Origin: OM182 bacterium
GTDB lineage: Bacteria; Pseudomonadota; Gammaproteobacteria; Pseudomonadales; Azotimanducaceae
Assembly: GCA_004213835.1 (NCBI GenBank)
Contig: SHAE01000002.1
Coordinates: 1 to 62,670, forward strand
Length of the DNA: 62,670 bases
Direction: 5' to 3'
In this document: positions 56,673-59,396 of the stretch, one piece after another
How positions within the stretch are numbered: the first letter of the stretch is position 1
Layout of the letters: each line of letters begins with the position of its first letter
Position numbers and translations under genes: made by a program
The notes under the pieces: model-generated
What the model saw: the letters and a program-made list of their open reading frames with translations, nothing else
Told to the model about the DNA's origin: nothing
Database searches by the model: none

Positions 56673-57524
56673 TTAGGCGCCTGCGATGGCCGTTTTGAGC
56701 TTGTTCATCGCATTTTTTTCGAGCTGCCGAATACGCTCGGCGGAGACACCGTATTCCTGTGCAAGCTCGTGCAGGGTTGATTTGTCATCGCTCAACCAGC
56801 GTTGCTGCAAAATATCCCGACTGCGCTCATCGAGTGCAGCAAGGCCAGAACTCAAGCGCAGGTGCATATCTTTGTCGCTGCTGGCATCTGCGACCAAGTC
56901 CGCAGGGTCTGGTGCCGCAGACGGCAGGTAATGTACCGGCGCCGTCGCAGCTTCGTCATCGCTGCCGTAACCATCAAAGGCCATATCGCTGGCGCTGAGG
57001 CGACTCTCCATGCGCGTCACTTCGACGCTGGGTACGCCCAATTCGTTCGCGATCGCATCGGTCTCTTCAACGCTTAGCCAGTTCGACGTTTTCTTCGCAC
57101 CGCGCAAATTAAAGAAGAGTTTGCGCTGAGCCTTAGTCGTCGCCACTTTCACGATGCGCCAGTTACGCAAGATATACTCGTGCATCTCGGCCTTGATCCA
57201 GTGCACGGCGAAGGAAATCAAACGCACGCCGACGCTTGGATCGAAACGTTTCACCGCCTTCATCAGGCCAACATTGCCTTCTTGAATCAGGTCAGCTTGG
57301 GAAAGGCCGTAGCCTTTGTAGGAGCGCGCTAGGTGTACGACGAAGCGCAGGTGACACATGACCAATTCGCGCGCTGCATCTAGATCACCGTGATCTTGCA
57401 GTCTCTGAGCCAATGATTTTTCTTGTTCTGGGCTGAGAATGGGGAACTGACTGATCGTGCGCAGATAGGCGTCAAGATCGGCCCCAGGGGCCATGCTTGG
57501 CATCTTCATTACATCTGTTGTCAT
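56673..57524 (-). CDS. rpoH: Heat-shock sigma factor sigma-32
   Basis: 283 residues. Region 2 contains [20 protein letters not shown] and [19 protein letters not shown]. The RpoH box QRKLFFNLR follows region 2, distinguishing it from sigma-70. Region 4 includes [27 protein letters not shown]. It directs the chaperone and protease regulon. It follows ftsYEX, the classical order. A CIRCE element sits in its promoter region, so HrcA control is likely in addition to the post-translational control known for sigma-32. Confidence 0.97.
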
Positions 57525-57613
57525 TGTTTAAAGCCTTCTCATGGGTTCGTTCAATCATTCCTACCGGCCAAAAAAACCGACCGATAGTGCTACCTGTGGT
57601 AACAACGGCAAAA

Positions 57614-57622
57614 ATACTAGCA
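57614..57622 (-). promoter_or_regulatory. Candidate extended -10 promoter of rpoH
   Basis: On the minus strand TGCTAGTAT reads as an extended -10 (TGn-TAGTAT). It overlaps the right arm of the CIRCE element and would start transcription about 83 bases before the rpoH ATG. No convincing -35 is seen. Confidence 0.45.
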
Positions 57623-57643
57623 CTCACAAAGAGAGAGTGCTAA
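57617..57643. promoter_or_regulatory. CIRCE element (HrcA operator) upstream of rpoH
   Basis: On the minus strand the arms are TTAGCACTC and GAGTGCTAG with nine bases between them. The CIRCE consensus is TTAGCACTC-N9-GAGTGCTAA, so 17 of 18 arm positions match. It lies between the ftsX stop and the rpoH start, centred about 106 bases upstream of rpoH, and touches a possible -10. HrcA normally uses this operator to repress groE/dnaK. Its place before rpoH would link the two heat-shock systems. Confidence 0.9.
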
Positions 57644-57705: not shown

Positions 57706-58704
57706 TTAAGTGGCGATCTGCGCCTCCAAACGTTGGCTTAGGGCGATCAGGGCGCCGCCAACCCCCAGCGACCAACCCGCCACCAGTACCGTAAGCACCA
57801 TTTGCGGGGTAAACCCACCAAGCACCAGCGTGTTGCGATAGGAAATCAGCAGAGATTCCAGCGGCGCTTCAATTTCATTTAGGAATACCGCCATCAAAAC
57901 GATGGCCATGATCCCACCACCAAGGCCATAGGCGGAACCAAAGTACAAAAACGGGCGACGTAGCTGAGATCGAGTTGCGCCAATGAGTGCCAGCACCCGC
58001 AGTTCGGCAAGGCGCGCGTCAATGGCAAGGCGAATGGCGGCAAAGGTGACTAGGACCGCCGCTACCAGCAGCATGGCCGATAGCGCGCTACCACCGCGAT
58101 TGGCCAGCCTCGATAAGTCACGCAACCGCTCCAGCCATGTGGACTCAATAACCACCTCGTCAACCCCTGCCTGGGCCGCCAGCCGACGACTCAGAGTTTC
58201 CAGAGCCAGAAACGGTTGGGTGCTATCGAGCGCCACTGCAAAGGATGTGGGCAGCGGATTTGTTTCAACCTCAGCAATAGCCTGCTGCAAGAATTGCGAA
58301 TCAGCGCTCTGGGCCAATAGTTCTTCCAGCGCTTGTTGTGGCGTCGTGGGTTGAACCGCTGCAACTGCCGGCTCGCGTTGCAGGGTCGCGGCCATATCGG
58401 CAATGGATTGCTCGGAAGCCTCAAGCGCCATATAGACCGTCAGACCGGTACTGCCCTGCCACTGCTGGCTTAGGCTGTGCATATTGCTCTGCAAAACCCA
58501 AAGCAAGCCCGGCAAGGCCAACGCGACACCGATCATGAGCCAAACCAAGAAGCTGCTGACGATACGCTGGCTAATAAAGAGCGTGGTTTCCGACGCCACA
58601 CGACGATGATCGGCCAACCAAGCGCGCGTGCGCCCGCCCTTGGGCTGCCACTTGCTCTGACTGCTCTTAGCGCCGTGCATGGTATCGGCTTTGTTTGCAC
58701 TCAT
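57706..58704 (-). CDS. ftsX: Cell division protein FtsX
   Basis: Membrane half of the FtsEX ABC complex that activates septal peptidoglycan hydrolases. 332 residues. A basic N-terminal cytoplasmic tail (about 1-45), TM1 near residues 50-70, a periplasmic domain (about 75-200), then three more helices (SALSAMLLVAAVLVTF, GGGIMAIVLMAVFLN and MVLTVLVAGWSLGVGGALIAL). Start overlaps the ftsE stop by 4 bases. Confidence 0.93.
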   Translation of the reverse strand: MSANKADTMHGAKSSQSKWQPKGGRTRAWLADHRRVASETTLFISQRIVSSFLVWLMIGVALALPGLLWVLQSNMHSLSQQWQGSTGLTVYMALEASEQSIADMAATLQREPAVAAVQPTTPQQALEELLAQSADSQFLQQAIAEVETNPLPTSFAVALDSTQPFLALETLSRRLAAQAGVDEVVIESTWLERLRDLSRLANRGGSALSAMLLVAAVLVTFAAIRLAIDARLAELRVLALIGATRSQLRRPFLYFGSAYGLGGGIMAIVLMAVFLNEIEAPLESLLISYRNTLVLGGFTPQMVLTVLVAGWSLGVGGALIALSQRLEAQIAT

Positions 58705-59396
58705 GTTTGTTCTGCCGTAGCGCTTGGTGCCTGAGTGTCTTGCACCAGCGCACCTTGGGACAGATGTAAAATGCGACAGCCTTGATCCTTGATGAGATCA
58801 ATATCGTGGCTGGCGACCAGTACCGTAGAGCCCAGATCTTTGAATTGATGAAACAGCGCCATAACCTGTCGTGACAAATAGGGATCTAAGTTCCCCGTGG
58901 GTTCATCGGCAAGAATAATCTGCGGCCTGTTCACCACCGCCCGAGCGATACCAACCCGCTGTTGCTCACCAGTCGACAAATGCCGAGGGTACAAGTGTCC
59001 ACGGTCGCTGAGATCGACCGTTGCCAAGGCGCCTCGTACTCGCCGAGCAATCTCTTTCGCTGCCAGGTGGGTGACTCGCAACGGCAGCGCAACGTTGTCG
59101 AAGACCGTTCGATCATTAAGCAAATTATGATCCTGCAGCACGATGCCCAGTTGCCGCCGATACCACGGCAAGGCACCAGGTCCCAGCTGAGCGATGTCGC
59201 TGCCATCCACGACGACGCGACCACTGGTCGGCATTTGTGCGCCAATCAACAGTTTCAACAGGGTGCTCTTGCCGGCACCCGAATGGCCGGTCAAAAAGAC
59301 CATGGAGCCTTGCTCGATGTCCAGCGACACATCGGATAACCCTTCGGAACCGTTATCGAACCGTCGAGTCACTCGCTGGAGCTGCAAAAACGACAC
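58701..59396 (-). CDS. ftsE: Cell division ATP-binding protein FtsE
   Basis: 231 residues, an ABC ATPase. Walker A GHSGAGKST, the signature LSTGEQQRVGIARA and Walker B IILADEPTGNLD are all intact, with the H-loop His in VASHDIDL. It drives FtsX at the septum. Located between ftsY (2-base gap) and ftsX. Confidence 0.96.
   Translation of the reverse strand: MSFLQLQRVTRRFDNGSEGLSDVSLDIEQGSMVFLTGHSGAGKSTLLKLLIGAQMPTSGRVVVDGSDIAQLGPGALPWYRRQLGIVLQDHNLLNDRTVFDNVALPLRVTHLAAKEIARRVRGALATVDLSDRGHLYPRHLSTGEQQRVGIARAVVNRPQIILADEPTGNLDPYLSRQVMALFHQFKDLGSTVLVASHDIDLIKDQGCRILHLSQGALVQDTQAPSATAEQT

Follow-up and report, generated by a model that had tools for sequence, protein, structure and literature searches.

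The HrcA/CIRCE regulon comprises groESL and hrcA-grpE-dnaKJ. HrcA activity is GroEL dependent in other bacteria, and autoregulation of the hrcA operon is common, although not universal. In Escherichia coli, sigma-32 is controlled mostly after transcription, and to our knowledge the heat-shock circuit of this organism includes no HrcA. We take the sigmaE-dependent promoter of E. coli rpoH to be P3; rpoH is a known RpoE-dependent target in this species (PMC5493296). For Geobacter sulfurreducens, a perfect CIRCE before rpoH, at position -51, was predicted in 2004 (PMC545781, Table 8), together with CIRCE elements at groESL and at hrcA-grpE-dnaK-dnaJ (PMC545781).

The window, that is, the whole stretch of 62,670 nucleotides analyzed here, comes from the genome of an OM182 bacterium (G000 in our sets) and carries genes in the order ftsE-ftsX-rpoH. 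The features relevant to this work are the following.

56673-57524, minus strand: rpoH, encoding sigma-32, 283 aa (TIGR02392 rpoH_proteo, 392.9 bits, cut-off 323.1)
57588-57604, minus strand: rpoH leader, imperfect inverted repeat TGTTACC-ACA-GGTAGCA, the motif of which is conserved in the genus
57614-57622, minus strand: extended -10-like element TGCTAGTAT, hexamer at 57619-57614, formed by the operator right arm plus 3 bases
57617-57643, minus strand: CIRCE, predicted HrcA operator, TTAGCACTC-N9-GAGTGCTAG, found by pattern match and kept in the genus
57638-57643, minus strand: putative weak -35-like element TTAGCA in the operator left arm, 18 bp before the -10 and matching 4/6 positions of the -35 consensus TTGACA
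57706-58704, minus strand: ftsX-like gene, 5' of rpoH (best model FtsX_Gneg, 219.4 bits, below the cut-off of 255)
58701-59396, minus strand: ftsE (TIGR02673, 269 bits, cut-off 264.85)

The predicted operator is located within the 181-bp gap between the ftsX-like gene and rpoH. Read on the minus strand, positions 57643 to 57617 give TTAGCACTC-TCTCTTTGT-GAGTGCTAG, an inverted repeat whose arms match the CIRCE consensus TTAGCACTC-N9-GAGTGCTAA at 17 of 18 positions, with a spacer of exactly 9 bases. Its end is separated from the rpoH ATG by 92 nt, and its center lies about 106 nt upstream of the gene. The initial annotation had described a minus-strand CIRCE with 17 of 18 matches, about 106 bases from the sigma-32 gene and overlapping a possible extended -10; pattern scanning bore out all of this, the overlapping element being TGCTAGTAT (57622-57614). 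No other match with three or fewer mismatches was found in the window, and shuffled versions of it contained 0.01 matches on average, a match being present in 1 shuffle out of 100.

We then looked at the rest of the genome. It encodes a full-length HrcA (TIGR00331, 302 bits against a cut-off of 197.2; PF01628, 195.7 bits, over the cut-off), the DNA-binding domain of which (PF03444) scored just above its cut-off, 25 versus 21 bits, and the gene following hrcA looks like grpE on inspection. Scanning the whole 1.6-Mb assembly with up to three mismatches gave two CIRCE sites, compared to none for a reversed control pattern. The second site, G000:C39:5052-5078, is placed 109 nt upstream of groES and directly follows a sigma-32-type promoter, CTTGAA-N14-CTCTAT, bringing groESL under CIRCE. 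Around hrcA there was no CIRCE (best match, 7 mismatches), nor was there one anywhere else in the assembly, and the autoregulated hrcA operon of the HrcA regulon was not seen in this genome. No sigma-32 promoter was detected at hrcA, and the best match at rpoH reached only 8 of 12 positions. The predicted HrcA regulon visible in this assembly is groESL plus rpoH; since the assembly is 70% complete, it may lack an RpoE or additional CIRCE sites. The initial annotation had made its reading depend on the presence of an hrcA gene, and both this gene and one additional CIRCE, at groESL, were present.

The site is conserved among close relatives, as the initial annotation had expected of a genuine operator. 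A CIRCE with 0 to 3 mismatches was found upstream of rpoH at all 34 genus loci with a readable rpoH start, the genus set consisting of 37 genomes, including the window's own, of which G012, G019, and G021 have no rpoH or a truncated one. Of the 37, 33 gave an HrcA match, and the remaining four assemblies are 58 to 91% complete. In other families of the order (21 genomes), the rpoH CIRCE was present in 6/6 HrcA+ genomes versus 2/15 HrcA- genomes. Among 80 named genomes it was seen in 21, including records of Haliea, Halioglobus, Luminiphilus, Sediminihaliea, Alcanivorax, and Ketobacter, and no Pseudomonas or Halomonas record of this set has it. The search for HrcA covered 50 of these 80 genomes, and that for RpoE 19; 19 of the 21 genomes with the CIRCE were HrcA+, compared to 1 of the 29 without, and this single exception has an rpoH site with 4 mismatches. 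Three of the named loci (L032, L033, and L034) are very likely the genus genomes G024, G017, and G026, already counted, and six (L039, L048, L085, L087, L092, and L096) yielded no rpoH frame, L039 and L096 being counted as CIRCE+ all the same. In G039, the contig that carries hrcA also has, about 10 kb away, a second rpoH-like gene (G039:C22:351237-352028, 48% identity); the upstream stretch read for it (L169) contains no CIRCE.

The distance from operator to rpoH is 89 to 222 nt in the window's close relatives (L002 to L010) and about 30 nt in most other genus members. The extra stretch, 57525-57616 in the window, contains a predicted hairpin (57587-57561), and as a whole it folds no better than shuffled sequences. 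Downstream of the rpoH promoter, 33/34 genus loci have an imperfect inverted repeat, GTTAC-N3-6-GTAnCA, and in relatives with a short leader a Shine-Dalgarno-like GGAGG or GGAAG is found inside it. This repeat could form a hairpin acting on the Shine-Dalgarno sequence or be the site of another protein, and it is too invariant to decide between the two; it hardly varies and gave no covariation evidence, one pair being mismatched in 23/33 loci. A structured leader RNA was considered as well and discarded, the 113-nt stretch from promoter to rpoH folding no better than shuffles (z = -0.63).

The CIRCE inverted repeat is followed in the window by TATTTTT between ftsX and rpoH, and it could in principle act in RNA, either as an attenuator or terminator after ftsX or as a leader stem controlling the rpoH mRNA. 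The run of T residues, however, is not kept in 11 aligned relatives, and the repeat overlaps the -10, so that it should be missing from transcripts of that promoter. We consider an RNA element very improbable.

We analyzed the distribution of the site across the class in 132 genomes, one per family. An rpoH was found in 122 of them, including the window's genome, which was excluded from the class counts; with the locus of G176 dropped, 121 rpoH upstream regions of 120 genomes were compared. An rpoH CIRCE with at most three mismatches was present in 82/89 HrcA+ genomes versus 5/31 HrcA- genomes. Counted by region, 82 HrcA+ regions had the site and 8 did not, compared to 5 and 26 HrcA- regions, respectively (Fisher, 1e-14, uncorrected for the tree, the genomes compared for this codistribution not being independent). 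One of the 8 regions belongs to a second rpoH in a genome whose first rpoH has a CIRCE, leaving 7 HrcA+ genomes without the site. Permuting the arms (40 permutations) gave a match in at most 1 of the 121 regions, with a mean of 0.025, and spacers of 7, 8, 10, and 11 bases gave 0, 1, 0, and 0 sites, compared to 87 for a spacer of 9. A chance palindrome at rpoH was ruled out by the shuffles, the reversed-pattern scan of the assembly, and these permuted arms. Outside the class but within the phylum, none of 13 loci, taken regardless of their HrcA content, had an rpoH CIRCE (best, 4 mismatches).

As judged from these sites, a predicted rpoH CIRCE is the rule among the sampled HrcA-bearing members of the class. 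The initial annotation had regarded rpoH as an unusual place for this operator, groE or dnaK being its normal targets, and the frequency among HrcA+ family representatives contradicts that view: the rpoH CIRCE is probably ancestral in Gammaproteobacteria and not an oddity. Over all sets, 13 HrcA- genomes have an rpoH CIRCE with 0 to 3 mismatches, namely, G121, G172, G188, G218, and G225 in the class; G038 and G052 in the order; G028, G032, G033, and G035 in the genus (58 to 91% complete); and L042 and L053 among the named genomes. Recent loss of HrcA, assembly gaps, or use of the site by another protein could account for these.

Alignment of the class sites indicated that the operator is nested with promoter elements. 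The three bases that follow the right arm are A/T, A, and T, the last of them being T in 77/87 sites, and together with the right arm these bases form an extended -10, TGnTAA(A/T)AT. Its final T was found in 33/34 genus rpoH sites versus 0/20 genus groES CIRCE sites (G in 13/20; the groES sites come from 20 of 31 scanned loci, all of them from the genus). Since this T is common at rpoH sites and absent from groES sites, it is a property of rpoH rather than of CIRCE.

In view of this coincidence with promoter motifs, the palindrome might be nothing more than an extended -10 preceded by a -35 in the left arm, a promoter whose resemblance to CIRCE is accidental, or else a relic that HrcA has ceased to bind, and the 13 HrcA- genomes that keep the site, some of them incomplete assemblies, could be read in the same way. 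However, a promoter needs neither 18 symmetric bases nor an exact N9, the signal was seen at spacer 9 only, CIRCE presence tracks HrcA, and many HrcA- regions keep sigmaE elements but match CIRCE poorly. We therefore regard a promoter or relic without a bound repressor as improbable and favor an operator recognized by HrcA.

A second type of promoter appeared upstream of the class sites. The sigmaE consensus is GGAACTT-N16-TCnnA. A GAACC or GAACT (GAACY) starts exactly at -15 upstream of the rpoH CIRCE in 47/87 class sites and at -14 to -16 in 58/87, and, combined with the TC in which the left arm ends, it fits a predicted sigmaE-type promoter, GAACTT-N16-TCnnA. The fixed A of TCnnA was present in 54/58 sites with GAACY versus 13/29 of the others (p = 1e-6); the extended -10 T, by contrast, was equally common with and without GAACY (51/58 and 26/29). 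In the CIRCE+ class genomes, GAACY was seen in 0/11 genomes without an RpoE over the cut-off, compared to 58/76 genomes with RpoE (p = 1e-6); one of the 11, G219, has an RpoE match below the cut-off. The sigmaE signature is not universal, GAACY being absent from -14 to -16 in 18 of the 76 RpoE+ CIRCE+ class genomes, and none was found in the 25 upstream bases of the named RpoE+ loci L035, L042, L051, and L075.

In the window's genome, no match to the RpoE model TIGR02939 exceeded the cut-off (best, 65.4 versus 236.15 bits, in an assembly that is 70% complete), and the sigmaE-type GGAACTT-N16-TCnnA is absent upstream of rpoH, while it is present in most RpoE+ relatives. With the CIRCE in place, the GAACTT gone, and RpoE not found, rpoH appears here to be left with HrcA plus the extended -10. 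The promoter picture of the initial annotation thus stood as far as the extended -10 is concerned, to which a sigmaE-type promoter under the operator has to be added for most RpoE+ relatives, but not for this genome. The same partition was observed within the genus: GAACY occurs at -14 to -16 in 9/11 RpoE+ genomes, the two remaining ones having it at -13, while in the 23 RpoE- genomes, including that of the window, it occurs at -14 to -16 in none and at -13 in one.

The RpoE+ members of the genus also differ in the operator itself. The left arm is altered (TTAGCAGTC or TTAGCAGAC, for example) in 10 of the 11 (L023 to L026, L028 to L031, L144, and L147), and CIRCE mismatches average 1.9 over these 11 members versus 0.13 in the 23 RpoE- members. 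Perhaps the altered arms are a compromise with the sigmaE -10. If each group forms a clade, as may be the case, the difference in the arm may date from a single event.

We also searched for vestiges of CIRCE in 71 HrcA- regions (15 from the order, 31 from the class, 1 from E. coli, and 24 from the named set, which has 30 HrcA- loci; L042, L046, L048, L053, L092, and L098 of that set and the 4 HrcA- genus loci were left out). In the 32 of the 71 regions that have a sigmaE-like promoter, CIRCE mismatches at the anchored position averaged 9.16 versus 11.82 expected (0/4,000 permutations), a signal that rests mostly on six sites with at most 5 mismatches and is weak without them (93/4,000). A CIRCE may thus have decayed, in part, in HrcA- regions with a sigmaE-like promoter. 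E. coli rpoH, with 12 mismatches at the anchored position, showed no such vestige.

We consider it highly likely, on the evidence of sequence comparison, that the site is a genuine HrcA operator repressing rpoH transcription and that GroEL-HrcA gates sigma-32 synthesis. This is what the initial annotation had proposed in making sigma-32 synthesis answer to the GroEL-HrcA folding sensor, and the presence of hrcA, the CIRCE at groESL, and the conservation of the site over promoter elements all support it. HrcA, kept active by free GroEL, would occupy the rpoH CIRCE and cover the extended -10, as well as the sigmaE -10 and spacer in those relatives that have them. Opening of the rpoH promoter by RNA polymerase would then be blocked, amounting to repression by occlusion. 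Unfolded protein would occupy GroEL, HrcA activity would be lost, and rpoH and groESL would be derepressed together; new sigma-32 would drive groESL from its own promoter, forming a coherent feed-forward loop, and new GroEL would restore HrcA, providing negative feedback. HrcA binding, repression, and the start sites at rpoH are inferred here.

In E. coli, RpoE, an mRNA thermosensor, and DnaK/FtsH are the main determinants of the sigma-32 level. HrcA could likewise bind here with only a minor effect while such inputs dominate, a reading that overlaps the one that we prefer. It would accommodate the 58/87 CIRCE+ class regions that also have the sigmaE signature, and E. coli, which keeps a sigmaE promoter without CIRCE. 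Nitrogen starvation of Xylella fastidiosa was reported to raise hrcA fourfold and rpoH twofold and to lower groESL (PMC3224663). Provided that rpoH has a CIRCE in this species, this expression set does not fit HrcA repression of rpoH in a simple way (PMC3224663), and the rise of rpoH despite that of hrcA (PMC3224663) would agree better with a minor role. Yet the window's genome and 22 relatives of the genus have neither an RpoE over the cut-off nor GAACY at -14 to -16, and their CIRCE is nearly perfect (0.13 mismatches). We hold a minor role of HrcA to be possible but rather unlikely, and we retain direct gating of rpoH by HrcA as the preferred reading.

Compared to the HrcA/CIRCE regulon, the system described here shares the operator consensus, the N9 spacer, the repressor family, and the groESL target; unlike it, its targets are groESL and rpoH with none at hrcA, and the rpoH operator is embedded in a promoter. 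The G. sulfurreducens rpoH CIRCE concerns one delta-proteobacterial species, and groESL is said there to be the only constant member of the regulon (PMC545781); the part of that account available to us includes neither a sigmaE overlap nor a gammaproteobacterial distribution (PMC545781). A gammaproteobacterial rpoH operator is absent from the titles and opening abstract lines of open-access papers mentioning CIRCE, rpoH, and HrcA, and excerpts of PMC10490939 contain no mention of CIRCE. We found no report of a class-wide, promoter-nested rpoH CIRCE in the open-access literature; some of this may already be covered by RegPrecise and by Permina and Gelfand (2003), whose account may include rpoH sites. 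From these partial sources, the operator is known and its target has been known once, by prediction, while the nested promoter layout and the class-wide range were not found described.

The E. coli rpoH region resembles these loci in its sigmaE-dependent promoter, GAACTT-N16-TCTGA (one E. coli genome), and differs from them by its 12 CIRCE mismatches at the anchored position and by the lack of an HrcA match in the E. coli control genome. We think it reasonably likely that an HrcA-gated sigmaE/extended -10 rpoH promoter, joining signals of cytosolic folding (GroEL-HrcA) and of envelope stress (RpoE) within about 45 bp, is the ancestral gammaproteobacterial heat-shock switch. E. coli, Pseudomonas, and similar models would be derived from it by losing HrcA and keeping the sigmaE half, while in the marine lineage of the window RpoE would have disappeared and the HrcA half remained. 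If most HrcA-bearing Gammaproteobacteria gate rpoH transcription by a GroEL-sensing repressor placed over a sigmaE-type promoter, the textbook systems sigma-32 and HrcA/CIRCE would be one hierarchical circuit and not alternatives, and the lineages retaining a single arm would constitute a natural experiment.
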